IMG/VR virus record: IMGVR_UViG_3300048591_000451
Location: 1 to 37,069 of that record
DNA from: a virus
Reading direction: 5' to 3' (one strand)
DNA length: 37,069 bases
Shown: positions 4,953 to 29,624 of the stretch, in pieces
How positions within the stretch are numbered: the first letter of the stretch is position 1
Layout: the number at the start of each line of letters is the position of its first letter
Translations under genes and position numbers: made by a program
Notes under the pieces: model-generated
Told to the model about the DNA's origin: nothing
Database searches by the model: none
What the model saw: only the letters and a program-made list of their open reading frames with translations

Positions 4953-6965
4953 CTATTTTTTTGAAATTCTCTCGCTTACTTCTTTTTCAGTGAAACCTTT
5001 TTTGTTTAGCTCATCAAAAAAGGCTCGCCATTCAGATATTTTTAAATTTTTAGGTGCTTCCGACATCTTTAATTCTTTTAGTTCAGTCTCACTTAAACTT
5101 AAAAATTTAGTCATTTGTGACCCAAAAATTGAGTACAAATATTCAAAACTTTCGGGCGTTAAAATAATTTTTTCTTTAACTGTTTTCGAAATGTAATAAG
5201 TATTAATTCCGACTCGAACTTCGCCTTCTGCTTCTACTTTTTGTTTGAACAGGTCTTTAAATTTTTTCACTGCTTTTTCAATCAACGATACTTTTTCAAA
5301 CATTTCGACATTAATTACGCCGTTGCTTTCTTCTAGCAAAGACTGAATTGTACCGTTCAATACGCCTTGTTTAGCTGCGCATTCGTATCTCAATGGGCAA
5401 TAAGTGCAATTATCGCCGACATTGTAGCCGTTCTTTTTACCGCTGAAAATCTCGAACAACTCTTTTTCGAAGGCTTCGCTATCGGCCCGAGTAAATGATT
5501 CTGTTTGCATCTTACCGCTTGAAGCATAGGCGGTTATAATAGCGACTTTTTCTAGTTCGGCAAAGTTCTTAAACATCAAAAGCATATAGCCTTTTAATTG
5601 TGCAGTGTAATCAAATCCTCCAAATCCTGCCTTGACATCTATAATGACCGCCTTTGTCTTGTCTACCCACCCGACCAAGTCCATAGTTCCAGATAATGTT
5701 CCCGATGTTATTGCTGCACTTAGTGGTTTTTCTGCGGTTATATTTTTCAATGCAGGGCGGTATTTAAGAAGCATCTTAGCCAAATTCCAACACAAATAAG
5801 CAATGTCAACCTTGTATTCGTCTTCGACTTCTCCGATAATTGCCTTAATGTCGGTGTTTTGTGAAGTGAAATACCGTTCTGAAAATTTATGCAAAGCCTT
5901 TCCCTCGGCGTTTCCTGCGAATGATTCTTCAATAGTTATTTCGGGCGCATGGCGTGAGTTGGTGCAAGAAAATATTCTAGGCAATGAGCTTGGGCGAATC
6001 TTTTTTGATTCAAGTTCTTTCTTTGCAATTGCTTCATTCATTAAAGCATGTCGTTCGCTTTCTGAATCTTTCATGTAAGAAGTGTAAACTTCTTCGGGCT
6101 TTGCGTGTTCAATTTTTATCGGCTTAAACTCTACCGCTTTTGCAATAGCATTATTAATCTTTGCCTCGTCAATTCTTTTTTGGTTTTCTTCGATCAACTT
6201 ATTTCTGTCAATCTCGTCTTGCTTTTCCTTTGCTTGTTTTTCAGCCTTGGCCTTGGCATCGGCTTCAACCTTTAAGCGATATTTTTCATTGCGTTCAATT
6301 TCAGCGTGAATACTCGCAATCAATCTTTGCTTGAAGTCTTCTTCATCAATTAAAAGAATATGCGCCACGCTTGTTTCAGTGAAAGGCTGAATACCCATTT
6401 TTAGGCATTCGCTTTCGACTTCTTTGTATCTGCCTTTGTACAAATTTTGCGTATATTGCTCTTTTTGAACTCTCGCAAGAATGGTTTCTTTTGTTTGTTT
6501 TGCTAGGCCACCTTTGGCAGTTACCGCCGTAAGTTTAATGCAATCTTTGTATTCCGCTGAATAGAAACGGCTTTCGATTTTGTAGTCGCTACGAAGGTCA
6601 TTAATCAATTTAATTAATAATCGTTCGCATTCTGCTTTCGTTGCGTCTTCAAATTTTTGAACTTGCAAAGAAATATCCGCACGGCTTGAATCGCAGATAG
6701 TTTCTAGCTCTTTAATTTGGGCCTTGAATCCATCGACAGGCTTTCGGAATACATCGATAGTAGCCTTTTCTTTATCTTTGATTGCGCCCTTAATTTTATT
6801 AAGGCTTGCCATCATTTTTTTAGCTTCTTGAATGTTGTCTTCTGTTACTTCAATTTTGAATTGCTCTACCGCCAAAATCAATTCACTTTTGAACTTATCA
6901 AAATTGCTTTTGAGTTCAGGCAATTGAATACTCTCAACTGCAAATTCTAATTGTTCCATTTCCAT
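4953..6965 (-). CDS. DUF1351-like domain fused to PD-(D/E)XK exonuclease (DUF2800/Cas4-RecB type)
   Basis: This 670-residue protein joins two phage recombination domains. Residues 1-230 match the DUF1351 pattern: a helical region with KKMMASLNKIKGAIKDKEK and FRKPVDGFKAQIKEL. Residues 230-320 are a charged Lys/Glu linker. Residues 325-535 form a PD-(D/E)XK nuclease of the DUF2800/RecB type, with His359 (GKALHKFSE), Asp429 (GTMDLVGW), Asp443-x-Lys445 (IIDVKAG) and Gln456/Tyr460 (AQLKGY). Cys334, Cys520, Cys523 and Cys529 are placed as in the iron-sulphur cluster of Cas4/AddB nucleases. It would resect DNA ends for RecT. About 120 residues after the last Cys are unassigned. In many phages these two parts are separate neighbouring genes, so the fusion is notable. 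The start is ATG at 6965 after AGGGAGTT; an internal start at 6959 is also possible. Confidence 0.85.
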   Translation of the reverse strand: MEMEQLEFAVESIQLPELKSNFDKFKSELILAVEQFKIEVTEDNIQEAKKMMASLNKIKGAIKDKEKATIDVFRKPVDGFKAQIKELETICDSSRADISLQVQKFEDATKAECERLLIKLINDLRSDYKIESRFYSAEYKDCIKLTAVTAKGGLAKQTKETILARVQKEQYTQNLYKGRYKEVESECLKMGIQPFTETSVAHILLIDEEDFKQRLIASIHAEIERNEKYRLKVEADAKAKAEKQAKEKQDEIDRNKLIEENQKRIDEAKINNAIAKAVEFKPIKIEHAKPEEVYTSYMKDSESERHALMNEAIAKKELESKKIRPSSLPRIFSCTNSRHAPEITIEESFAGNAEGKALHKFSERYFTSQNTDIKAIIGEVEDEYKVDIAYLCWNLAKMLLKYRPALKNITAEKPLSAAITSGTLSGTMDLVGWVDKTKAVIIDVKAGFGGFDYTAQLKGYMLLMFKNFAELEKVAIITAYASSGKMQTESFTRADSEAFEKELFEIFSGKKNGYNVGDNCTYCPLRYECAAKQGVLNGTIQSLLEESNGVINVEMFEKVSLIEKAVKKFKDLFKQKVEAEGEVRVGINTYYISKTVKEKIILTPESFEYLYSIFGSQMTKFLSLSETELKELKMSEAPKNLKISEWRAFFDELNKKGFTEKEVSERISKK

Positions 6966-13098: not shown

Positions 13099-15570
13099 TT
13101 ACATTAGTACGCCGGTTGATAATCTAATTTCACGAGGCGAATTTTTTATAACTGTTCTCGCCAAAGTTCTACCATCTAAATTCATGATAATAGTTTGTTC
13201 TCTATTACCTAACATTGAATCCAATCTATCAAGTGGTATAACTGCTTCTTGACCTTTTTCACCAATTAAGGCATTTGTCGGCCCTTGTGTTATACCACCA
13301 CTAGCAAGTTTTAATTTGCCTTGTAATCCCATAACAGTAGCAATCATAGCGCCCATTGCAGCAATCGCCAAAATCGGCCCAATAATTGGGATACCGGCTT
13401 GTGAACTTGCTGCGCCCGAACCGGCTACAATTGCGTTGTTTGCAATCATAGTTTTTGAACTGGCAACACTTGAAGCCGTAGCAATTCCTGCTGTTGTAAT
13501 TGCATCAGCCTGTACAATTTTTGAAGTTACACTGCTTACAGTTCTTTTCATTAATTCAGTCATTAACCATTGCATACCCATTTTAACTATATTTTGAATT
13601 ACAAAATCAGCTAACGATTTAAACATAGACTTAAATGTTTCAGCAAAACTAGCACCGTCTAAAATCATATTAGAAATGCCTTGCGAAAAATTATTAAAGA
13701 CATTGTCCCATAACCCGCTTACAACAGTCGAGGCAGTAATCATAGAGTTTTCTATATGTTCTGCCAATTCCGTCCAAATTGTTTTTTGCGATTCTATTTT
13801 ATCTTTTAAATTTGTATCGTCTGATTGTTTTAAATCAGCGGTACTACTTCCACCAACACCAATAAAAGAAGGCATTTCATTTTTTGCCATTGATTTAATA
13901 TTAGGGTCTTCCTGTGCAACTTCTGGAACTGGCTTCTGTTTTGCTTTTCCAAATGGATTAAAATCACCAAGTAAAGAAAGCGAACCAATTGCTAAATTTT
14001 TCATATATTCAAGTGCCGAAGTAAAAGCGCTTTTTGCCCCATCGGCAACAGTATCCCAAGCACCACCCATTTTAGATTTTACCCAGTCGGCAGTATCACC
14101 AATCGCACCTTTAACACTGCTACCAATTCCGATTAATGTTGCGTCGAAATCTTCTGCCATATCATTTAATTTTACTTCAATTTTTGTTGCTTCTTCTCTA
14201 AAACTATCTGAAAAACCAGTAAATTTAGGATTATTTATTTCTTGTTTTAAATCACCAATTGAAGTATTAATGCCCATTATAGCATTAGTTGCAAGTCTTG
14301 AAGCCTCATCAAAACCCTTGCCGATATTTGCCAAAAATACGCTTGTTTCAATAGCCTTTTCCATGCTTTGAAGCAATATGAGAATTGCTGGCCCAAATTT
14401 ATCAACAATTACTTTTGCATTGTCTGCAAAAATTCCTGCCAAACCTGCAAAGGCAACTATTGCCATTCTGATTATTTGAATTACACTTCCAATTATTACA
14501 ACAATTGGCAAAGCTACCGAAGCAAAAGCAGAAACAGCAGTTACCATTGCCCCAACATTTGCAACAAAAAAGGCAAATGCTTTTGAAATCAAAGAAGCGG
14601 TAAAGGCTAAAACACTAGAAATGGCAACAGCCAAACCTTTAATTAACGACCAAATTATACCTGTTGCTGTAATTAATGCAGTGCTTAATGTTCCCACAAC
14701 CGTAATCAAAGGCGGAAGCAAAACGGCAAATGCTAGAACGGTCATTGCACCACGCTTAACAGAATCGTCAAGTGAAATAAAATAGTCAATTAAGGGCATT
14801 ATTTTATCAATCAATGAGCTAACGATAGGAATTAATTCTTTTCCAAAAGTTTCTTGCAAAGTTTTTACTTTTGCATTGAATCTGTTCATCACTTCGCCCC
14901 AACCTTCTTGCGACTTGGAAGTGCTTCCTATTGATTTTTCAAAAGTTTTATGAAGCAAGCTAGACATAACTAAAGCTTTGTCACGCTCATTTAATTGTTC
15001 TTTTGTTTTATTAATTCCTAAAATAAACGCTTCATTTTCTATTTCTGCATCAGATATAGAAATACCTAATTGTTTTAATGATTTTACATTTCCGGTTAAA
15101 CTAGAAGTAAATGCTTCCATTACTTTTGAATCAGATATTCCTTTTAAACTAGCAACATCAATTCCAAGTTGAACTAATGACCGTGATAAATCTCCGGCTT
15201 CTGATTCCGTTAAATCCATTGAAGTAAAAAGGCTACCAAATTCGGAAGCATAATTCTTCAAATCAGTTGTATTTCTTCCAAATATTTTAGATAAATTTAA
15301 TAAAGACTTTTCTATTTTAGGAGCAGAATCGCCAAAAACGGCAGTAATTCTGCCGTTAGCGTCTTCCGCCTCACCTGCCATTTTTAAAAGAGATTTTGAT
15401 ATTAATGTAGCAGGCAAAGCAAGCGCAACCGACATTTTTGCGCCTAATGTTTGAATATTTTTAGTGATTTTTTTTGTTGAATTAATTACTTCACTTACGG
15501 ATTTATTAAGATTTTTTGAAAAATCTTTTGTAAGTAATTCAAGTTTAACGCTTAATGTTTTTTGAGCCAT
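13099..15570 (-). CDS. Tail tape measure protein
   Basis: This 823-residue protein sets tail length and fills the tail tube before DNA ejection. The N-terminal part (residues 1-290) matches TP901-type tape measure proteins, with the RITAVFGDSAPKIEKSLLNL and LGIDVASLKGISDSKVMEAF blocks. Several hydrophobic segments lie between residues 275 and 400, as usual for the membrane-inserting part, and there is a Gly/Ala-rich C-terminal region (about 695-760). The closing part with ASGGITQGPTNALIGEKGQE and VIPLDRL is a common tape measure end. It starts with ATG at 15570 inside the end of the chaperone extension ORF, an overlap of 26 bases. By the known rule of about 0.15 nm per residue, the tail would be roughly 120 nm; this is an estimate. 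Confidence 0.93.
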   Translation of the reverse strand: MAQKTLSVKLELLTKDFSKNLNKSVSEVINSTKKITKNIQTLGAKMSVALALPATLISKSLLKMAGEAEDANGRITAVFGDSAPKIEKSLLNLSKIFGRNTTDLKNYASEFGSLFTSMDLTESEAGDLSRSLVQLGIDVASLKGISDSKVMEAFTSSLTGNVKSLKQLGISISDAEIENEAFILGINKTKEQLNERDKALVMSSLLHKTFEKSIGSTSKSQEGWGEVMNRFNAKVKTLQETFGKELIPIVSSLIDKIMPLIDYFISLDDSVKRGAMTVLAFAVLLPPLITVVGTLSTALITATGIIWSLIKGLAVAISSVLAFTASLISKAFAFFVANVGAMVTAVSAFASVALPIVVIIGSVIQIIRMAIVAFAGLAGIFADNAKVIVDKFGPAILILLQSMEKAIETSVFLANIGKGFDEASRLATNAIMGINTSIGDLKQEINNPKFTGFSDSFREEATKIEVKLNDMAEDFDATLIGIGSSVKGAIGDTADWVKSKMGGAWDTVADGAKSAFTSALEYMKNLAIGSLSLLGDFNPFGKAKQKPVPEVAQEDPNIKSMAKNEMPSFIGVGGSSTADLKQSDDTNLKDKIESQKTIWTELAEHIENSMITASTVVSGLWDNVFNNFSQGISNMILDGASFAETFKSMFKSLADFVIQNIVKMGMQWLMTELMKRTVSSVTSKIVQADAITTAGIATASSVASSKTMIANNAIVAGSGAASSQAGIPIIGPILAIAAMGAMIATVMGLQGKLKLASGGITQGPTNALIGEKGQEAVIPLDRLDSMLGNREQTIIMNLDGRTLARTVIKNSPREIRLSTGVLM

Positions 15571-15931
15571 TTTCTAAAGCCTTTTTCTTGTTTAGTTCAA
15601 TTAAGCGTTTAGTGATATTTTCTTTTCTTAAAGCCTGTTTTTCTTCGGTAGTCATAAACATTTTTTCAAATGCTTCAGCCTCGTCTTCTGGCGTTAACAA
15701 CGACTTGGCTTTTATTTCTTCCCAATTAAAAAGCTCTTTAGGCTTCAACATCTTTTTAACATGCGGTGCTGTCAAATAGCTAATCTGCCAACTCGCTAGT
15801 TCGTACTTCTCTTTAAAGTCTTGCTCTTTGTATAAATACATGTAGTCAATATCTTTGCAGGTCATATCCCAAAAATCTTTTGGTTTTATGCCTATTTCGG
15901 ATATTGCAATTTCATAATATTTATTAATCAA
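15545..15931 (-). CDS. Tail assembly chaperone, frameshift extension part (gpT-like)
   Basis: This ORF encodes about 128 residues before the tape measure gene, but its only nearby start is a TTG at 15931 without a good ribosome binding site. In the same frame it is open upstream to the nine-A run at 15976-15984. A -1 shift there, after codon 102 of the preceding chaperone gene, gives a product of 245 residues: 102 from the first ORF, 15 linking residues and these 128. This is the conserved G/GT arrangement described in lambda and in most siphoviruses, in which both products help the tail tube form around the tape measure. The sequence itself (KYYEIAISEIGIKPKDFWDM, then basic C-terminus) fits the tail chaperone extension type (GT-like, with tryptophan-aspartate/YMYLYKEQ). 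It is best annotated as a frameshift extension, not a separate gene. Confidence 0.8.
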   Translation of the reverse strand: MINKYYEIAISEIGIKPKDFWDMTCKDIDYMYLYKEQDFKEKYELASWQISYLTAPHVKKMLKPKELFNWEEIKAKSLLTPEDEAEAFEKMFMTTEEKQALRKENITKRLIELNKKKALENGSKNIKR

Positions 15932-15945
15932 TTCCTTAAAGGTTT

Positions 15946-16281
15946 TTATCTCTTTTTCTTCGCCTGTTCCGATTCTTTTTTTTTCATTTCTTTAAACAAG
16001 GCGCTTTCTTCTATTGTTTCGTTAATCAATTCCATTAGCTTATCAATGCCATTTTTTTCTACGAAGTCATCTAATAAATTTTTGAAATTTTTTAAGTCTA
16101 GCCCGTCATTATCACCAGATATGCAAGCCTCGACAAAATTTGAAACAACTGTCAAATCGCCCTTGTTTAAATTTTTAAAAAAGTCTTCAATGCCAACCGC
16201 ACCGAAAACAGTTTTTAAGTAATCAAAAGCAGAAAAGCCAAAACGCAATCGTCTTGGCCTGTCTAATTGTATAAATGCCAT
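15946..16281 (-). CDS. Tail assembly chaperone (gpG-like)
   Basis: This 111-residue protein is the short form of the tail assembly chaperone. It has a beta-like start (MAFIQLDRPRRLRFGFSAFD) and then a helical body (FFKNLNKGDLTVVSNFVEAC, NLLDDFVEKNGIDKLMELIN), as in the family of small chaperones just before tape measure genes. The C-terminus is a Lys/Glu-rich tail. Near its end it runs through the slip site ATGAAAAAAAAAG, which allows a share of ribosomes to shift into the extension ORF. The start is ATG at 16281 behind GGGAG with a run of A between. It follows the tail tube gene directly, the usual order tube, chaperones, tape measure. Confidence 0.8.
   Translation of the reverse strand: MAFIQLDRPRRLRFGFSAFDYLKTVFGAVGIEDFFKNLNKGDLTVVSNFVEACISGDNDGLDLKNFKNLLDDFVEKNGIDKLMELINETIEESALFKEMKKKESEQAKKKR
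15976..15984 (-). promoter_or_regulatory. Nine-A slip site for -1 frameshift between chaperone ORFs
   Basis: On the minus strand the zero frame reads ATG AAA AAA AAA GAA. Slipping back one base on the last AAA gives AGA, which is the frame of the extension ORF. A AAA AAA G is a known slippery heptamer type. Transcriptional slippage adding one A would have the same effect. No clear downstream stem-loop was identified by eye. Confidence 0.8.
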
Positions 16282-16319: not shown

Positions 16320-16751
16320 TTACGGCAAAATTAAAGTCTGTGGTTTTCCGCAACCTTGAAATGAACCGCTAATCATAACAGCGTCTTCGAGTGCGTTCTT
16401 TTCTTCCCACGATTTTACTAAAACCGTACCTTCAAAATATTTTGCACCGCTGACATCATTAGGTCGATATTGAAAAATCAATTCGCTACCTTCTGTAATG
16501 CCACCAAGTACGGCTTCTTGTCCCGGGTCAGCTTCCAACGAAATGACTTCGATTGATACTTCCCATTCTTTCAAGCCTTCAATGAATTCCTTCCAACCAT
16601 CTACCGAATCAAAAGAAGTAACATCAATTGGCGTCATGTTTTTTGAAATGCTCATGTCTTTAGCATTTGCGACTACTAAATAAGTAGAACCGCCATCCGT
16701 AGATACATACGGCTTGCCTTTATATCCCGCTACACCTTTACCGCAACCCAT
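16320..16751 (-). CDS. Major tail tube protein
   Basis: This 143-residue protein is likely the tail tube subunit, placed just before the tail chaperones. The pattern GYKGKPYVSTD, KDMSISKNMTPIDVTSFDS, EFIEGLKEWEVSIEVISLEA, DPGQEAVLGGI and then EDAVMISGSFQG fits tail tube proteins of the TP901-1 major tail protein 2 family, which form hexameric rings stacked into a tube. The length is typical for one tube domain without an added Ig domain. The start is ATG at 16751 with AAAGGAAA upstream. A second, clearly related tube domain occurs at the junction 20455-20018, where it is fused to other domains. Confidence 0.85.
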   Translation of the reverse strand: MGCGKGVAGYKGKPYVSTDGGSTYLVVANAKDMSISKNMTPIDVTSFDSVDGWKEFIEGLKEWEVSIEVISLEADPGQEAVLGGITEGSELIFQYRPNDVSGAKYFEGTVLVKSWEEKNALEDAVMISGSFQGCGKPQTLILP

Positions 16752-16785: not shown

Positions 16786-17118
16786 TTACACTTTTTGACG
16801 AATAACCGCAACTTCAATATCAGTGATAGAGCCAAAAGTCAATTCGACATTTCCACCATTATTAAAAAGCATTTGTTCAAAAAAAGATGATTCATAAACC
16901 TTATTTGCAACCATTGCAACGACAATATCGCCACTTCTTCGATTGCTATCTACACGACTTTTTACAGTCAAATTTCCCGTTGGCGTTGCACCGGTTTTTA
17001 CAATCAACTTGCAAAATCCATTGTTTTTGAAAACCATTTCCAAAGCACCGGCAACAAATGTAACTGTGCTTACTGCATGGTTTAATTGGTCTTGTACTAC
17101 GATTTCTGTTGCTGGCAT
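16786..17118 (-). CDS. Hypothetical tail/virion protein, 110 residues
   Basis: No family is recognised. The protein looks like a single beta-sandwich domain: ATEIVVQDQLNHAVSTVTFV, then GFCKLIVKTGATPTGNLTVK, then VELTFGSITDIEVAVIRQ, with few charged residues. It lies between the tail terminator and the tail tube, a place where decoration or tail-associated proteins occur in siphoviruses. The start is ATG at 17118. A structural role is inferred from location and composition. Confidence 0.55.
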   Translation of the reverse strand: MPATEIVVQDQLNHAVSTVTFVAGALEMVFKNNGFCKLIVKTGATPTGNLTVKSRVDSNRRSGDIVVAMVANKVYESSFFEQMLFNNGGNVELTFGSITDIEVAVIRQKV

Positions 17119-18015: not shown

Positions 18016-18870
18016 TTACCCTAAATTAATTTCAATTTGAACAATCGGACGAATTCTTCCTACACGATAAACAAAATCACTTAAACAAAGTTTTGCGCTA
18101 TAGGAATCACAATTATTATTTTTTCTTGTGTAAATTATTTTATTTTCAAAAATTGAACATTTATAAATAGATTTTTGGTCTGCAACAATTGCCTTAACTT
18201 CTAAAGTATCTAAATCTAGTTCATCGGTAAAATGACAATCATTTGTTTGTTGTTTTCCAATATTGCTAGGATAAGTAAGCAATAATTTATTTGTGCCATA
18301 AACAAATGAAATTCTCCTTACAAAACCACATAAACCTATTGCAATTTTTCTAATTACTTTGGCTTGTTTGTTTTCTACAACAATAAAAGCATTGCCGATA
18401 TAAGAACTCGCAACTGCTTTATATTTAATATTTTCAGCAACACAATAAGACCTTAAACCCATTATTTGCGGTATAAATTCAGGCTCGCCAAGAGAATTTA
18501 AATCGTCGCCTTTTCTTCTATATGCTCTATATATTGGTTTTCTATGGCTTACTAAATCCTCACGAGTATATATTAAATTTATTTTACCTTGCCCATCAGT
18601 AAAAGCCGAAGGCGAGCAATAAACATTTTTTAAATCATCTTGAAAAATATTTTGCTCATTTGTAGCAATTCCTGTTTCCAAATCTATATCGCAAGTATAA
18701 ATAGAATAATCTCGGTAATATGTTTCCGTACCCATATCATGCAATTGCCTGTATCCCTGTTCTTCTAACTTTGTATCATCTAAATTAGCACGACAATACA
18801 AAAGTTTATTGCCACCAATTAAAAAAGGCATGTGCCTATGATAACTATTATTTGAAAAATTTATTTCCAT
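18016..18870 (-). CDS. Hypothetical beta-rich protein, 284 residues
   Basis: No family is recognised. The correct start is ATG at 18870, directly after the stop of the tube/LRR ORF (TAAAATG); a longer frame upstream overlaps that ORF and looks non-coding. The protein repeats a motif of short strands with aromatic and Asp residues: LIGGNKLLYCRANLD, YSIYTCDIDLETGI, KINLIYTREDL, NAFIVVENKQAKVI, NKLLLTYPSNIG, ENKIIYTRKNN. This looks like a beta-propeller of several blades. It has no signal peptide. It is linked by position to the beta-rich/tube/LRR locus and may be a virion surface or glycan-binding protein, which is inference. Confidence 0.55.
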   Translation of the reverse strand: MEINFSNNSYHRHMPFLIGGNKLLYCRANLDDTKLEEQGYRQLHDMGTETYYRDYSIYTCDIDLETGIATNEQNIFQDDLKNVYCSPSAFTDGQGKINLIYTREDLVSHRKPIYRAYRRKGDDLNSLGEPEFIPQIMGLRSYCVAENIKYKAVASSYIGNAFIVVENKQAKVIRKIAIGLCGFVRRISFVYGTNKLLLTYPSNIGKQQTNDCHFTDELDLDTLEVKAIVADQKSIYKCSIFENKIIYTRKNNNCDSYSAKLCLSDFVYRVGRIRPIVQIEINLG

Positions 18871-18871
18871 T

Positions 18872-20470
18872 TTAATACAACCAACTTCTTGGCAAAGCCA
18901 AAGGATTAAACTGTTCAACAGGTAAAATTTCTGAATATTTCGGAGTATAAGTAATAAGACTTTCAGCTTCTGCAAGCGTAATTCCCTTATCACTTGCAAT
19001 TTGTGCAATTAAAAGCGTTATATCATCAAGCGGAGATAATTCAAGTTCTGATATATCTAGCTTTTCAAGTATAATAAAGTCTTTACACAATTGAGGAAAC
19101 ACGGAAGCCACAAGCAAAGAACTATTAGCCGTTAATTTTCTTGACTCCCAATAACCATTTCCGTAGAAAGCATCGTTAGGGTAACGGTTTAAAGCAAAGT
19201 ATAGCTCTTTTACTTTTAGTTTATCGCAATTCCAAAACGAAACAATATTTTTATTCACATTCAAATAGTCAAGCGTGCTTGGATTCGGTGCGCTTGTAAA
19301 ATTGCTAAACAAAAATTGCTCTGTGATAAAGTTATAACTCAAATCTAAATACTTGATCGTGTCGGCAAAGTTTACCAGTGCGCTTGACCATTGGCCTAGA
19401 AGATTGTGGTCAGCCTTTAAGTATTTAAGTTCTAGGTCTTGAATCGACTCAATGTCCGTAAAGCTTAAATCATTGAAAGATATGTTGACGCCTGTCAACC
19501 CTGTTAGTGTTCCAATGATCGTAAGGTCTGAAAGCCTCATGTTCGATAGGTCTAATATATAATCTGGGTTTGCAGGGAAGAAGCTATAAACCAAAAGAAT
19601 CCACACATCGGAAGCGTTTCCGTTATGGCCCAATGTGATACCTACCAATGAAGCCAATTTCTTTATGATCTGAATTTGCCCGAAATTGGTTGTCTTTTCG
19701 GCAATCTCAACGAATTGCTCATACTTTGTAAGCGAATTATTAGGAATATAAGCACTATCTCGACATAAATAGCGATAAACGACATGAACGGGGCAACCGC
19801 TTAGGCCGGCACCACTGGCATTAAGCGTGATCGTTCCAATGTCTCCGGTGCCTGTCTCAATCGGTTCAAAGGTTTTCTCAACTATCCAACCAGTAGAGCC
19901 GGCCGGTGCCTTTGGGGCCTCAAATGTTTGGCCATTAAACATATAAATATTTTCATTCAATTCCTCACAACAGATATTATTGCAAGTGATTAAATTAGCC
20001 TGTTTCTCGAACATTCTTTGTAAAGGGCCTGTGCCAAGAATGGCAAAGCTATTGTTTACGGCATCTTGTGTGCTTTGTTGAATGCCAACAGAAACAACAA
20101 ACCCCATACCAATACGAACGGTGCGATAACCACGGGTTCCGAAGTCTTTATTTCTAACTAGCTTAATCCAAACCCGTTCATGATTGTCGATTGCTTCCCT
20201 TAATCGTTCTTGACCGGCATCGTCTTCAATATAAACATTTGAAATTGTTACTGACCAACGCTTAAAAGAGGCTTCAAATTTTTTATATTTATTATCTCTT
20301 TGAAGTTGACCGTATGTTGAAATATCGGTCATTTCAGATTGAATATTTAATTTGAAATTAAGAATAGCGCCAACTTTTACGAATTCAGAATCAGCACAAT
20401 TAGCATCTTTACGAAGCCAAATTTCGCCTTTGTAGCCGTTCTCGCCTATTCCACAAGAAAAAATGCCGTT
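18872..20470 (-). CDS. Tail-tube-like domain plus leucine-rich repeats, -1 frameshift extension of the upstream ORF
   Basis: The first ATG in this frame is at 20332 (486 residues), but the frame is open to 20476 and the 46 upstream codons are clearly coding. They supply SCGIGENGYKGEIWLRKDA, which matches the start of the tail tube protein (MGCGKGVAGYKGKPYVSTD). Further matches are KKFEASFKRWSVTI with KEFIEGLKEWEVSI, DDAGQERLREAI with ADPGQEAVLGGI, and QDAVNNSFAILGTGPLQ with EDAVMISGSFQGCGKPQ. A full tube domain therefore requires entry from the upstream ORF by a -1 shift. No ATG, GTG or TTG lies in the 46 codons. Residues 258-395 (counted from the ATG) are leucine-rich repeats: YILDLSNMRLSDLTIIG, GVNISFNDLS, IKYLDLSYNFI, LDYLNVNKN. 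The linker between has four Cys. The fused product would be about 1190 residues. Confidence 0.75.
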   Translation of the reverse strand, partial: NGIFSCGIGENGYKGEIWLRKDANCADSEFVKVGAILNFKLNIQSEMTDISTYGQLQRDNKYKKFEASFKRWSVTISNVYIEDDAGQERLREAIDNHERVWIKLVRNKDFGTRGYRTVRIGMGFVVSVGIQQSTQDAVNNSFAILGTGPLQRMFEKQANLITCNNICCEELNENIYMFNGQTFEAPKAPAGSTGWIVEKTFEPIETGTGDIGTITLNASGAGLSGCPVHVVYRYLCRDSAYIPNNSLTKYEQFVEIAEKTTNFGQIQIIKKLASLVGITLGHNGNASDVWILLVYSFFPANPDYILDLSNMRLSDLTIIGTLTGLTGVNISFNDLSFTDIESIQDLELKYLKADHNLLGQWSSALVNFADTIKYLDLSYNFITEQFLFSNFTSAPNPSTLDYLNVNKNIVSFWNCDKLKVKELYFALNRYPNDAFYGNGYWESRKLTANSSLLVASVFPQLCKDFIILEKLDISELELSPLDDITLLIAQIASDKGITLAEAESLITYTPKYSEILPVEQFNPLALPRSWLY

Positions 20471-22443
20471 TTTTTTTCATCGCACGAATTTACATTCGTT
20501 ATGACGCCGGCTAATGTTCCAGTTATCGTACTGAGCGGTGTCTTTCGAAGCTCAGCAGAACTTAGAACAATTATTGTTCCATCAACAGTTAAATTAAAAT
20601 TATTAGTACACCATGCACCGGCTAATATAACTAAATTATTTAGCCCATTATCTCCGGCTTGACCATTGTCAATAGTGATTGCGCTCAATTGAGTAACCTT
20701 ACCGCTAGGCTTGTTTACTTGCCATATACCGCTATCAAGTTTACCGTCCGATGAAGTTACTGTTTGGTCTGACGCACCATTTAAAAGAAATGTTGGTGAA
20801 GTCGCTAAAACTCTACTTGAATATAAATTGTTTTGCTCAACATTTCCACCTATGCGAACCATAAACCCTGCACCAATAACATTTGCAGTCGTTGCCGTTG
20901 AACTCTTTTTATAGTAGCCGTTAATTGTAAGGCTTGAACCTAAAGTTAATGAAGCGGTTAAGCGTGCGAAACTAAAATTGCTTAAAGTCCAACCGTTAGT
21001 AGTTAAAAGCAAAGCGGTTCCTACCGCAGTATTTGCAAACAAACCGCCACCAATTAAGCTACGATTAAACACCGAAGCAATGCCTATAATAAAATCAGTA
21101 CCTCGACAAATAATTCCTTGCGAACCCTCATTAAATGTGCCTAGTGTTGAGACAAAACGCAATAAATCTAATACGCCGGCGCCTTGATTATAAATACCGC
21201 CTGTTTGATTGAATGCATCAGGTATTACTAAGTTGAAACCGTTTTGATTAAAGGTTCCGCTTATCATATTGAAGTCGTTAGTAGCGCCTAACATTGTAAA
21301 GTTAGACATTAGCGTAACAGTACCGCCCGACTTATTAACATCGATTGGAACTTGATAAGATGCTACTGAACTTGTAAAGCTTTGAGCGCCTGTACCGTTA
21401 AATATTGCTCCCGAACAATTTCCATTTGCAGTAAGGATAGATAAATTTCCTCTAAATCTAACTGGTGGGAAATTGTTAGCTCCTGTTTGGGCATTTAAAA
21501 TAAAATCACCTTCGCATTGTATTTGAGTTCCTGCCCAACCAACACCTACACCACTAGTACAATTTTGTTCTAGGTGGTGAAATTGTCCGTTGGTTATTGT
21601 TATTCCGTTATTTGTGAATCTAGCGATAGCCTTTTTTGAATTCCAGTTTATTGTTCCTACAATATGATTCCAGTTTCCATACCAAGCAAAATCATTAATA
21701 ATATTTAATGTACCGCTAGGTTTGTTTATTGTAATTGCATTTACTACTATTGCGCCTGTAACATTGAAGTCTTGATTTCCTGTTCCTTCAAAAACAACAG
21801 AAACGCTACCTAGTGCGAATGTAACATTACCTTTAACATAGGCAACCAATGACCCACCATTTGCATAATTATTTAGAGTTCCAACTAAATTATTTGCAAC
21901 ATATATTCCTGTTCCTGCTAATGTACAACTTGGACACATATTAAATTCAAAATTGTAGAATGGATACCCGATTAAATTTCTTGCATTTGTGTGATTGCTT
22001 CCGCTAATTAACATCGTTCCATTATTATGATTAAATACACCGCCTGTAATATCAAGGCTATAAGTTCCGATTCCTGCGACGCCTACCGTGTGTACTCCGC
22101 TTGTGCTTGTGAAAGTTCCTGCGGTCATTACGAATCGGCTTGAACTGCTTCCAGTTATTGCGGAAGATGAACCAACAAAAACGCCTCCGTTTACTGTCCA
22201 CCAAGCAGAACCATAATTAATAGTAAAAGCATTTTGAGTAAAGGTATTTATATACCCTGCGCTCATTAAAATACCTTGAACATTTATATTAACTTCAAGA
22301 CTTAAATTACCACTATTGGCATCAAGAATAATTCTGTCGCCCGAAGCAGGAACGCTTGCACCGGAAGCACCGCCGGAAGTCGTTGACCAATTGGCGGTAG
22401 TGTTGAAATTTGTACCAACATTTAAAAAATAGCGATCAGCCAT
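20446..22443 (-). CDS. Large beta-rich (beta-helix-like) virion protein, 665 residues
   Basis: The protein starts at ATG 22443, two bases after the upstream stop region. It opens with RYFLNVGTNFNTTANWSTTS and SVPASGDRIILDANSG, a motif found at the start of many beta-helical phage and cell-surface proteins. The rest is a long run of short strands rich in Gly, Asn, Thr and Ser, for example AGTFTSTSGVHT, SGTFNQNGFNLVIPD, and NKPSGTLNIIND paired with NKPSGKVTQLSA. No catalytic site is evident. It ends seven codons after a nine-A run (20469-20477), and a -1 shift there fuses it to the tube/LRR ORF. It is therefore probably an exposed virion domain carried on a tube-like base. Confidence 0.7.
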   Translation of the reverse strand: MADRYFLNVGTNFNTTANWSTTSGGASGASVPASGDRIILDANSGNLSLEVNINVQGILMSAGYINTFTQNAFTINYGSAWWTVNGGVFVGSSSAITGSSSSRFVMTAGTFTSTSGVHTVGVAGIGTYSLDITGGVFNHNNGTMLISGSNHTNARNLIGYPFYNFEFNMCPSCTLAGTGIYVANNLVGTLNNYANGGSLVAYVKGNVTFALGSVSVVFEGTGNQDFNVTGAIVVNAITINKPSGTLNIINDFAWYGNWNHIVGTINWNSKKAIARFTNNGITITNGQFHHLEQNCTSGVGVGWAGTQIQCEGDFILNAQTGANNFPPVRFRGNLSILTANGNCSGAIFNGTGAQSFTSSVASYQVPIDVNKSGGTVTLMSNFTMLGATNDFNMISGTFNQNGFNLVIPDAFNQTGGIYNQGAGVLDLLRFVSTLGTFNEGSQGIICRGTDFIIGIASVFNRSLIGGGLFANTAVGTALLLTTNGWTLSNFSFARLTASLTLGSSLTINGYYKKSSTATTANVIGAGFMVRIGGNVEQNNLYSSRVLATSPTFLLNGASDQTVTSSDGKLDSGIWQVNKPSGKVTQLSAITIDNGQAGDNGLNNLVILAGAWCTNNFNLTVDGTIIVLSSAELRKTPLSTITGTLAGVITNVNSCDEKKTAFFLVE
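20469..20477 (-). promoter_or_regulatory. Nine-A slip site for -1 frameshift into the tube/LRR ORF
   Basis: On the minus strand the zero frame reads GAT GAA AAA AAA ACG. Slipping back one base on the second AAA gives AAC GGC, the frame of the tube-like domain. The context ATGAAAAAAAAA is the same as in the chaperone slip site at 15976-15987. Transcriptional slippage adding one A, or a homopolymer sequencing error, would also join the frames. Confidence 0.65.
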
Positions 22444-22918: not shown

Positions 22919-23419
22919 TTAAACGCCATTCATTTCAATTGCTTTGTTAGCTTCTTCCGGAGTCAATGAAGCAAGATATTTCTTCCAATCCTCGTCTTCT
23001 TTTCTTCTTTTTGCCATATTTTGATTTCTATTATCTAAAGCCTTTTTGCCACCAAAGAAACCAAGCAAACCTAAAACAATATCGGTTGCAAGTCCACCGT
23101 AAGGAATACCGCACATTTCAGTAATACTTCCAACGGCTTTCACGCCCTTTGTAACGGATTCATTATCTAACGATAAGCCTTTTGATTTTTGAGATTCCTC
23201 AAAAGAAACAATTGCTTTTTCGGTTGCTTCGGCTTTTAATTTTGCCGTCGCTTCTGTTTTTTGATAAGCATCAAAAAGGTCAGCCATTTTTTTAGTAGTG
23301 TCTGCATTATCACTAACGACTTTCGATAATCTTTCAACATCTACCGACTTCGCTAAACAACCACTAAGAAAAAATACCGCAATTACAAAAACACTTAAAA
23401 GATAAATTTTTCTACCCAT
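22919..23419 (-). CDS. Lipoprotein with C-terminal hydrophobic segment, possible unimolecular spanin
   Basis: The better start is ATG at 23419 (166 residues), behind AAAGG. The N-terminus is a lipoprotein signal: MGRKIYLLSVFVIAVFFLSG followed by Cys at residue 21, lipobox LSGC. A charged helical region (about 25-100) comes next, rich in Lys, Glu and Ala, then a hydrophobic segment GIPYGGLATDIVLGLLGFFG and a basic tail KKALDNRNQNMAKRRK. An outer-membrane lipid anchor at one end and an inner-membrane segment at the other is the layout of unimolecular spanins such as phage T1 gp11, which fuse the two membranes at lysis. The Asp in the hydrophobic segment makes this uncertain. It overlaps the small membrane gene upstream by 25 bases. 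Confidence 0.6.
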   Translation of the reverse strand: MGRKIYLLSVFVIAVFFLSGCLAKSVDVERLSKVVSDNADTTKKMADLFDAYQKTEATAKLKAEATEKAIVSFEESQKSKGLSLDNESVTKGVKAVGSITEMCGIPYGGLATDIVLGLLGFFGGKKALDNRNQNMAKRRKEDEDWKKYLASLTPEEANKAIEMNGV

Positions 23420-23523
23420 TTTTCGACCTTTATTAAAAATGTTTGAATCCAAAAAACTACCGTACTCAAAACAATAACGATTAAATATAAAGGCATTGCT
23501 AAAAGCCTTAATATATTTTTCAT
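23395..23523 (-). CDS. Small single-span membrane protein, 42 residues
   Basis: The start chosen is ATG at 23523, overlapping the upstream stop (TAATG), with AGAAGG about 8 bases before it. A longer frame to 23580 overlaps the previous gene out of frame and is less likely. The protein is MKNILRLLAMPLYLIVIVLS followed by TVVFWIQTFLIKVEKWVEKF and IF: one membrane helix and an amphipathic basic C-terminal helix. It could be a small holin or a membrane partner of the lipoprotein gene that overlaps it. No family is recognised. Confidence 0.55.
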   Translation of the reverse strand: MKNILRLLAMPLYLIVIVLSTVVFWIQTFLIKVEKWVEKFIF

Positions 23524-26785: not shown

Positions 26786-27498
26786 TTCATTTTCTCCGAT
26801 AAATAATTTTTAAAGTCTAGTATCAATTTTGATTCTTGTTCTTTTTGCAAGAGTTCTAGCTTGAGTTTATCTGGCTCGGAGTTTGCAGGGTCTTTGCCTT
26901 CTAAAGTTGCTAAAAGTTGGTTAAATTGAACAATTGATTTCTTAATAATGTCTATGTCGCCTTTGTTAGCATTGCCTAGACAATCAAGCAATACTTCCAT
27001 TTCTTCGGTAAAAGAAAATTCACTTTTCCACCCTGTAACTTTTCCACCCAAATTCATTGGAAAAGTTACAAGTGAAATTTCATGTAGTGCCAATTCTTTT
27101 AAAATTCTAAAATCACCGTCAAAAGCCACCTTTTCGGCAATATAGCCAATAGATAAACCTTTGATAATCTTTTCTTTAATCATTGTAGCTGATTCTTTAC
27201 CCCAATATAATGCTTTGCAAATTTTACCTTCTTTAAGTTTAAGCCCTTCGCTTGAATCTTCGACTATTGCGGTTCCTACAGGACAATCCATTTTATGTTG
27301 ATATAAATAAACTCGCTCATTTCCCTTTTGGTCAATAGTCCTTTTATATGCACCTTGTTTAATTATATCACCGCCTAAATCTGGCTTATCATCATAAGGC
27401 GAAATCATTCCTTCGGTGTATAAATAATTATCATCGCTAGACATTTTATCAATGTCCAATTGAATGTTTAACTGCTTGAATTCAATTTTCTTTTTCAT
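26782..27498 (-). CDS. HK97-family prohead protease
   Basis: This 238-residue protein is the capsid maturation protease (peptidase family S78/U35). It has the opening YTEGMISPYDDKPDLGGDII, then VYLYQHKMDCPVGTAIVEDS with the catalytic His at residue 68, then GLSIGYIA with the catalytic Ser at residue 117. The block LKELALHEISLVTFPMN (residues 133-149) is diagnostic for the family. The C-terminal 70 residues are a charged helix. It removes the N-terminal part of the capsid protein during assembly. It overlaps the portal gene stop and the capsid start (both ATGA), so portal, protease and capsid are coupled. Confidence 0.93.
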   Translation of the reverse strand: MKKKIEFKQLNIQLDIDKMSSDDNYLYTEGMISPYDDKPDLGGDIIKQGAYKRTIDQKGNERVYLYQHKMDCPVGTAIVEDSSEGLKLKEGKICKALYWGKESATMIKEKIIKGLSIGYIAEKVAFDGDFRILKELALHEISLVTFPMNLGGKVTGWKSEFSFTEEMEVLLDCLGNANKGDIDIIKKSIVQFNQLLATLEGKDPANSEPDKLKLELLQKEQESKLILDFKNYLSEKMK

Positions 27499-29624
27499 TC
27501 GAAATACTCGTCTAAAGATGAATCATGATAAGTAACAACACAACGACAATTTATAACATTGCCGGCACTCGCACCGTGCGAGCTGTCTCTGGGAAAATCT
27601 AATCTTTCACCGCTAACATTAAAAGAATAACCCAAGTCAATTTCACCGTTCACAAAATCAACTGATTTGTGGTCAAAAGGTGAATTAATACCATCACGAA
27701 CTCGGTCATCATGTCCACTATGCCATTGCTTTTTGCTTAAAGGTGCAATCTTTTTTTGACTTTCTAAGGAAGCAAACGAAGTCGCCCTTAAACTTTCTGT
27801 TCGGGCAATTTTTTCAGCCCTATAAGTTGTCATATTTGAATCATAAAATTCATTTATAGCTCTGGTAGTATCTTGAATTGAAAGACCTTCTTTAACGCTT
27901 TCAATAATTACATTTTCAATTAATTTTTGTGTTTCTTTGTTTATATCAACAATCAAATTTCCAATTTTTATTTGCTTGAAATAATTATCCACATATTGAG
28001 CATATTCAGCTTTGAATAATCTTAACAAATTAATATCTGAATTTAATTTAGGAGTCTCTTTTGTTTCTATTCCTAGAAAACTAATAAAGTCTTTTTTTGC
28101 TTGCATTCTAGCTTTTAAAGCACTTTCAAAAGCAATATCTTTATAAATAATATTGTAAACTTCTTTTAATGCCTGAGTGGTTCGCTCTATAACTTGCTTT
28201 ACCATTTCGGAATATTGGTCAACAGTTGCAAGCGTTTTGGCTTTTTCTTCAATCTCTTTTAATTGAAATTCAAAATATTTATTAATAACTTCTTTTGATT
28301 CGTCAATCGCTTTATCCTCATTTCTAGTAAAGGCTTTTATTTGCAAATCAATATATTTATTTTTACATTCAAATTTTCTTTTTAATTTTGCATCATCTTT
28401 AAATAAAAAATTTTGTTGACCTTCAATAATTTGTTCTAATGTTTTGCCACCAATTATAATTACATTTCCATTGTCTATTGGTTTATGTCCTTTTAAAAAT
28501 CTTTTTTCATTAATTGTTAATTCATTAGATGAATCAATTTTTGACCACTCACTTTTTTTCTGTTCATGTAACGCTTCAACGCCAGTATCATCAATATAGA
28601 TTTTTAAGCCCATATTAAATTTAGGCATCAAGAAACGATTTAAAGCATCGACAATATTTGAAAGCAAAGGAAAAGCAGTATCATTATGCAAAGATAAAAC
28701 CGCTTGCGTATAATTAGCGAATGTTTGACTTTCGGTATCTCCAATTAATTGTGGAGGCACATTAAAAGCAGAACTAATTTCTCGTTTACTTGTTTTTTGT
28801 GCAACTGTAAAATCGGCATCTTTAGGGCTTAAACCTGTTTGAGTAAACTTTAAACCACCTTCTAATAATTTATTTTTACCAGCGTTTTGTACTCCGCTTT
28901 CCTCATTTATTTGTGATTTCAATCTTTCGAATTGTTCAGTGGTTAAATCATTTTCCGTGCTAAATATACCGGTCGGATTAACGCCATTTAAAAGTAAATT
29001 AACATTCCATTTTTTTGCGGAATTATCTACATCTATTGAATATCCACACGCATTAATTGCAGAAAATCCCTTAGTTCTGTCCAAAGGGTTAAACGATTTA
29101 AAGTGCATAAAATTATTTGAATCAAGTTTAATAGATTGATTCGCTCTTAATTTATATCCTACAATTTCACAACCAATTGCAGTTTCACTTGTAATTACTT
29201 CAATTTCTTTTCTTGTTAAAATAACTAATCGTTGTGGTTTACCTGCATTAATCCCATTTTCTGTACTAATAGCATAAATAAAGACTTCTCCATAAGTCTC
29301 ATAAAATCCTACAAACATTTCTAGCCAATCACTTTGGCAAAGATTTTTATCTGGGTAATCAATTAATTTGTAAAAATCGCTTTTTGTATCAATTTTTTCT
29401 GAATTGCTTTCAAGAGCAACATAGAGTCGCATTTGTAAAACGGCATTTATAATTTTTCTTATTGCTGAATATGTACTTGTGTTAAGGCAATAACCACTTT
29501 CTGCCAATATTTGCGAGTCTTGATTTAAGGAATAGTTTCCTGTGGCAGTTACTACCGACAACTTATAAGAAAGCGCCTGTATACCTTTTTTAAGAAAACT
29601 AGGAATTAAATTTGAGAATTGCAT
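27495..29624 (-). CDS. Portal protein fused to a MuF/SPP1 gp7-type domain
   Basis: This 709-residue protein joins two usually separate head proteins. Residues 1-410 are an HK97-type portal: STYSAIRKIINAVLQMRLYV, DWLEMFVGFYETYGEVFIYA, FNPLDRTKGFSAINACGYSI and KREISSAFNVPPQLIGD. Residues 420-590 are a long helical linker. Residues 599-705 are a MuF/gp7-type head morphogenesis domain with RAEKIARTESLRATSFASLE, KQWHSGHDDRVRDG, LDFPRD and the closing NCRC (692-695). The portal forms the dodecameric DNA channel; MuF-type proteins sit near it inside the head. The start ATG at 29624 has no strong ribosome binding site. The gene overlaps the protease start (ATGA). Confidence 0.9.
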   Translation of the reverse strand: MQFSNLIPSFLKKGIQALSYKLSVVTATGNYSLNQDSQILAESGYCLNTSTYSAIRKIINAVLQMRLYVALESNSEKIDTKSDFYKLIDYPDKNLCQSDWLEMFVGFYETYGEVFIYAISTENGINAGKPQRLVILTRKEIEVITSETAIGCEIVGYKLRANQSIKLDSNNFMHFKSFNPLDRTKGFSAINACGYSIDVDNSAKKWNVNLLLNGVNPTGIFSTENDLTTEQFERLKSQINEESGVQNAGKNKLLEGGLKFTQTGLSPKDADFTVAQKTSKREISSAFNVPPQLIGDTESQTFANYTQAVLSLHNDTAFPLLSNIVDALNRFLMPKFNMGLKIYIDDTGVEALHEQKKSEWSKIDSSNELTINEKRFLKGHKPIDNGNVIIIGGKTLEQIIEGQQNFLFKDDAKLKRKFECKNKYIDLQIKAFTRNEDKAIDESKEVINKYFEFQLKEIEEKAKTLATVDQYSEMVKQVIERTTQALKEVYNIIYKDIAFESALKARMQAKKDFISFLGIETKETPKLNSDINLLRLFKAEYAQYVDNYFKQIKIGNLIVDINKETQKLIENVIIESVKEGLSIQDTTRAINEFYDSNMTTYRAEKIARTESLRATSFASLESQKKIAPLSKKQWHSGHDDRVRDGINSPFDHKSVDFVNGEIDLGYSFNVSGERLDFPRDSSHGASAGNVINCRCVVTYHDSSLDEYFE

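Follow-up and report, generated by a model that had tools for sequence, protein, structure and literature searches.

It is known that phages decorate their tails through a frameshift that appends a small Ig or carbohydrate-binding domain to the tube protein. Adhesion domains added to tube proteins in this way are carried by a minority of subunits, and binding to the host surface has been proposed for them (PMC8718954, PMC6316719, PMC5009743). In SPP1 the major tube protein is read in the zero frame, and a +1 shift gives gp17.1*, which gains a C-terminal Ig/FN3 domain. Adhesins may also be borne on the neck, as in the lactococcal 936 and P335 phages with their neck passage structure (NPS) and TpeX-extended tail proteins (PMC6669499).

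The locus described here, in which a beta-rich arm, a second tail-tube-like domain and a leucine-rich-repeat (LRR) region may be joined by a -1 frameshift, resembles SPP1 gp17.1/gp17.1* and the Ig-like additions of Listeria and lactobacillus phages in that a frameshift would join a tube protein to an extra, putatively host-binding domain. However, unlike in SPP1 gp17.1*, the tube paralogue lies downstream of a -1 shift and would be the C-terminal anchor of a beta-rich protein, with an LRR as the extra module. Moreover, the major tube protein is encoded by a separate gene, which sets the fusion apart from an extended tube protein of the gp17.1* type. NPS and TpeX of the 936 and P335 phages are likewise accessory adhesins at the neck or tube with variable C-terminal binding modules, and a beta-helix is present in two NPS groups (PMC6669499). 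The NPS anchor, however, is a BppU-like beta-sandwich and not a tube paralogue, and neither an LRR nor a -1 frameshift fusion is described there (PMC6669499). The neck passage structure has a BppU-like N-terminal domain, a coiled coil and a C-terminal binding module, whereas the anchor found here is tube-like; no BppU match was found in Pfam, PHROGs or NCBIfam. Lambda G/GT offers a further parallel, with its -1 shift on a slippery run within the tail gene cluster. Lambda GT acts as an assembly chaperone and does not remain in the virion, and the arm-tube-LRR fusion differs from it in domain content and gene position. Finally, the Listeria 'antigen A' (lmo2291 family, 8qhs) is simply a tube subunit and has neither arm nor LRR, unlike the fusion.

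The window (the whole stretch of 37,069 bases analysed; IMG/VR virus record IMGVR_UViG_3300048591_000451) is from an uncultured tailed phage. Its minus strand carries a gene order typical of siphophages: terminase, portal-Mu-F fusion, capsid, connector, head-closure region, Neck1, terminator, tail tube protein, chaperone pair and tape measure, where the names connector, head-closure and tape measure are based on position and sequence pattern. The portal protein and a Mu protein F-like domain are contained within a single ORF (27495-29624; PF04860 + PF04233). When the tube-LRR frame, the arm or the 284-aa protein that follows them was itself used as the query, viral contigs, phages and genome contigs yielded no relative. 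Two relatives were reached through searches with the tail tube protein, namely L003 (IMGVR_UViG_3300022707_000821, a metagenome assembly, as is the window) and L005 (IMGVR_UViG_3300049857_000025), whose tail tube protein is 70% identical to that of the window. These are the only two relatives with a second tube domain in the viral contigs, phages and genome contigs searched, and wider scans with the tape-measure C-terminus, the second tube-like domain, the linker and the arm C-terminus found no additional double-tube genome. The tube-LRR frame sits between the head-closure region and Neck1, and the interval is the same in all three genomes.

Several neighbouring genes were also noted. A small conserved protein (110-113 aa; 16786-17118), without a confident family match, is encoded just upstream of the tail tube protein in 3/3 genomes. 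Within the virion-gene cluster, a 177-aa protein with a lipobox-like signal (FFLSGC) is found at 22919-23452, and a lipoprotein-like gene occupies the corresponding interval of L005 (6739-7344). Immediately after the tube-LRR frame, positions 18016-18870 encode a 284-aa protein with 42% identity to its L003 counterpart and zero matches in Pfam, PHROGs, NCBIfam or phages; from its periodic sequence pattern it could be a small beta-propeller. The features on which the argument depends are collected in Table 1.

Table 1. Positions of the arm, the tube-LRR frame and related features in the window.
Feature	Position	Strand	Basis
665-aa beta-rich, Asn/Gly/Ser/Thr-rich ORF ('arm')	20446..22443	-	ORF, SD AGGTG
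A9 slippery run, proposed -1 frameshift site	20469..20477	-	zero-frame reading A_AAA_AAA_C
-1 frame ORF: tube domain, Cys linker and LRR	18872..20476	-	translation; 534 codons
Second tail-tube-like domain, residues ~8-154	20018..20455	-	phrog_1407, PF06199, hhalign, orthologous domain in L005
Cys-containing linker domain	19727..20017	-	67% identical to L003, best conserved part
Leucine-rich-repeat region, residues ~303-496	18990..19570	-	Pfam, motif counts, PDB profile search
Tail tube protein proper (paralogous to the second tube domain)	16320..16751	-	PF06199 E=8e-12, phrog_1407 E=2e-16
Tail assembly chaperone pair, -1 frame overlap at A9 (15984-15976)	15545..16281	-	Phage_TAC_12 / phrog_183

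Sequence comparison indicates that the second tube-like domain and the tail tube protein are paralogues that have diverged. A preliminary description of this DNA had proposed that the two align along their full length, and this was borne out by a Smith-Waterman score of 98, against 28.8 +/- 4.6 (maximum 57) in 1000 shuffles. Profile matches to the phage tail tube protein family extend across the domain: in a single-sequence scan, residues 28-153 matched phrog_1407 'major tail protein' (E=3.1e-15), and nearly the full PF06199 profile was matched at E=7.4e-5, 0.5 bit below the gathering score. Moreover, when the three second-copy domains were aligned as a profile to the three tail tube proteins by hhalign, the result was E=2e-11 with a probability of 97%. 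A combined tube alignment, which included the tail tube proteins, had Listeria 'antigen A' 8qhs as its best PDB match (E=9.5e-10) and a weak match to the SPP1 gp17.1 structures (E=0.012). With a profile of the second copies only, the top PDB hit was again 8qhs, a tube structure, but its E-value was 0.32, and most of the match of the combined alignment thus stems from the tail tube proteins of the phages themselves. The AF2 models of the tube-LRR frame (mean pLDDT 32.6) and of the 665-aa arm (pLDDT 34) were unusable because only two rows were available in each alignment.

The tube-LRR frame overlaps the end of the arm ORF at GAAAAAAAAACGGC. Here the zero frame reads GAA AAA AAA ACG and the -1 frame opens right after a TGA, at AAA AAA AAC, so that a slippery heptamer stands in the correct zero frame with an open -1 frame downstream, as in programmed -1 frameshifting. 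L003 shares all 14 bases (its A9 lies at 6285-6293), keeps the -1 relation between the two frames and likewise has no start codon there. Site and frame relation are thus conserved, albeit across two genomes only, between flanking proteins that are 32% identical for the arm (904 aa in L003) and 53% identical for the tube-LRR frame (L003:6286-7893, 535 codons open). Long A runs are error-prone and both sequences are metagenome assemblies, and a homopolymer sequencing error, hiding a true run of 8 or 10 A's and an ordinary gene, either separate or fused, was considered. However, the exact A9 and its frame relation recur in two independent contigs with diverged flanks and the chaperone pair is arranged likewise; we regard such an error as very improbable and, given the conservation, rejected it as the source of the frame break.

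The chaperone pair has its own -1 overlap at a second A9, where the slip site reads A_AAA_AAA_G, and provides a within-genome precedent for a frameshift between the arm and the tube-LRR frame. Tail chaperone overlaps of this kind on slippery runs are a known class of site. At the slip position of the chaperone pair L005 has A8G, and L003 is without a long A run. A stimulatory RNA structure downstream of the arm/tube-LRR A9 was also sought by comparison with shuffled sequences; it is unsupported in the window itself (z -0.5), but the signal in L003 is significant (z -3.5). In E. coli, A_AAA_AAA frameshifts less than A_AAA_AAG (PMC5009743).

The preliminary description took ATG 20332 as the start of the tube-LRR protein. 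It is indeed the first in-frame start, with no ATG, GTG or TTG before it, but homology to the tube protein begins ~48 codons upstream, where there is no start codon, and the start of the protein must be sought elsewhere. The first 48 codons of the tube domain in the window, and the first 35 in L003, precede any such codon, and the first in-frame start of L003 (GTG, 6391) is not homologous in position to ATG 20332. No Shine-Dalgarno sequence was found ahead of ATG 20480 or ATG 20332; one is present for most neighbouring genes. Across the 38 aligned codons between the zero-frame stop and the window's first start, the window and L003 differ at 13/12/30 sites in codon positions 1/2/3, a third-position bias characteristic of a translated and constrained frame, here the -1 frame upstream of 20332. 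Translation of the tube-LRR frame alone, from ATG 20332 or a non-AUG codon, with the missing N-terminus dispensable or pseudogenised, could draw on the in-frame starts of the two genomes and has a free-standing counterpart in L005. We judged it improbable, however, in that it would delete the first tube-domain strands, which are conserved upstream of the start; the candidate starts lack a Shine-Dalgarno sequence and lie at non-homologous positions, and the L005 protein begins at a proper domain boundary.

The simplest reading of these sequences, and one we consider fairly probable, is that the arm ORF and the tube-LRR frame are expressed through a conserved programmed -1 frameshift, giving a fusion. 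It is supported by the identical site and shared overlap in two phages with diverged flanking proteins, and by start-less tube codons that are constrained in the -1 frame and have no Shine-Dalgarno sequence at either ATG. It is weakened by the small number of genomes, two, in which the frameshift is seen, by sub-cut-off LRR scores (below) and the E=0.32 of the second tube-like domain in the PDB, by an RNA structure that does not stand out in the window and by the lower shiftiness of A_AAA_AAA.

Under the frameshift reading, the two frames would be one cistron pair. Most ribosomes would terminate at 20446 and release the beta-rich protein alone, with the C-terminal end ...CDEKKTAFFLVE. Some would slip by -1 on the A9 and read ...CDEKK-NGIFSCGIGENGYKGEIWL..., yielding a predicted fusion of ~1190 residues with the junction peptide ...CDEKKNGIFSCG..., in which the arm would form the N-terminal part (658 of its 665 residues), followed by the tube-like domain, the Cys linker and the LRR. 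The frameshift would thereby keep anchored copies few in comparison with free arm protein. The arm holds three '[VI]NK[PS][SG]G' repeats and had no confident match in Pfam, PHROG, NCBIfam, PDB or phages. Joint display of the arm and the tube-LRR part, as envisaged in the preliminary description, is retained, but not as separate proteins: the start-less tube domain seems to be made only by the -1 shift, which would join it physically to the arm.

Slippage of RNA polymerase on the A9, a somewhat unlikely alternative, would produce the same fusion from 10-A mRNAs and a free-standing tube-LRR protein from 8-A mRNAs, starting at the RTG that immediately precedes the run, which is an ATG in the window and a GTG in L003. 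A nine-base run is long enough for this in bacteria, as in T. thermophilus dnaX, where slippage occurs on nine T's (PMC5009743). However, the window ATG is without a Shine-Dalgarno sequence, and a clean A_AAA_AAA heptamer is positioned in the frame that a ribosomal -1 shift requires.

The order of domains in the preliminary description, with a Cys linker and then an LRR after the tube-like domain, is supported by sequence profiles. Between the window and L003 the linker is conserved above the tube domain (49% identity) and residues 301-500 (54%), and it has no PDB relative. The LRR region consists of tandem LxxLxLxxNxL-type repeats, ~5-7 in number and irregular (counted by eye). Pfam LRR_4 matched residues 308-338 (E=0.0024), and the same place in the L003 homologue matched LRR_1 (0.011) and LRR_8 (0.024). 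In a search with a two-sequence LRR profile, the top PDB matches are LRR structures (GALA 9j7j, E=0.0022; designed LRR 4r58, E=0.023), and LRR motif counts are above those of shuffles in both homologues (P=0.0009 and 0.0025). Every LRR Pfam score falls short of its curated cut-off, which points to an irregular repeat region. Profiles agree on both domains (phrog_1407, PF06199 and hhalign for the tube; LRR_4 and the PDB profile search for the LRR), and the same domain pair was found in another phage genome, that of L003. A search of the open literature found no case of an LRR domain in a phage virion, and such domains seem to be scarcely reported. The GC-richer codon use reported in the preliminary description is seen in the linker and LRR (GC3 0.37-0.385, versus ~0.25 in most neighbours) but not in the tube part (0.27), and the separate ancestry proposed from it is rejected because the L003 homologue has no GC3 rise (0.25-0.28).

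At the same locus L005 encodes a tube-like protein with its own ATG at the domain boundary, no arm ORF directly ahead and an unrelated C-terminus. The tube domain is thus the constant part, with varying N- and C-terminal modules, which favours an anchor function; from these sequences, the domain would behave as a modular anchor. It would probably insert into or cap a hexameric ring, at the head-proximal tail end or within the tube, and would anchor the arm and LRR as exposed adhesion modules towards the host surface. A tube-based anchor displaying the LRR and arm, as first proposed for this DNA, is the best-supported reading; the mucosal surface named with it was not upheld. We infer slippage at the A9, a virion location, ring insertion and a binding function, and by analogy with known systems the arm-tube-LRR protein may act as an accessory adhesin of the neck or tube. 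The tube-like domain might instead have a structural role at the neck or in tail completion, as a spacer ring or terminator, with the LRR making assembly or protein-protein contacts inside the virion and not binding the host. The head-closure/Neck1 neighbourhood in 3/3 genomes would suit such a role, but we consider it unlikely; L005 retains the tube but has an entirely different C-terminal domain, as expected of a surface-exposed variable module. The head-closure to Neck1 interval of L005 (L005:5052-6776) also holds a glycine-rich fibre-like protein and a DUF1353-like protein, and the gene for the 284-aa protein is missing at this locus. The contents of L005 suggest that the interval is a hot spot for accessory-gene exchange.

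By analogy with the adhesins of other phages, the fusion would probably give the virus extra host-adhesion appendages near the neck or tail. The known pattern of tail decoration would be inverted here, with the second tube paralogue being the part added by the frameshift, and the shift would decide the number of large appendages that are anchored. More tentatively, we consider it possible that the tail-tube paralogue has become a dedicated anchor encoded downstream of a -1 frameshift, that slippage sets the fraction of a giant beta-rich appendage that is built into the neck or tail of the virion, and that the LRR is a virion-borne recognition domain. If expressed, the locus would offer a simple system for frameshift-controlled virion stoichiometry and for LRR-based host recognition in phages.
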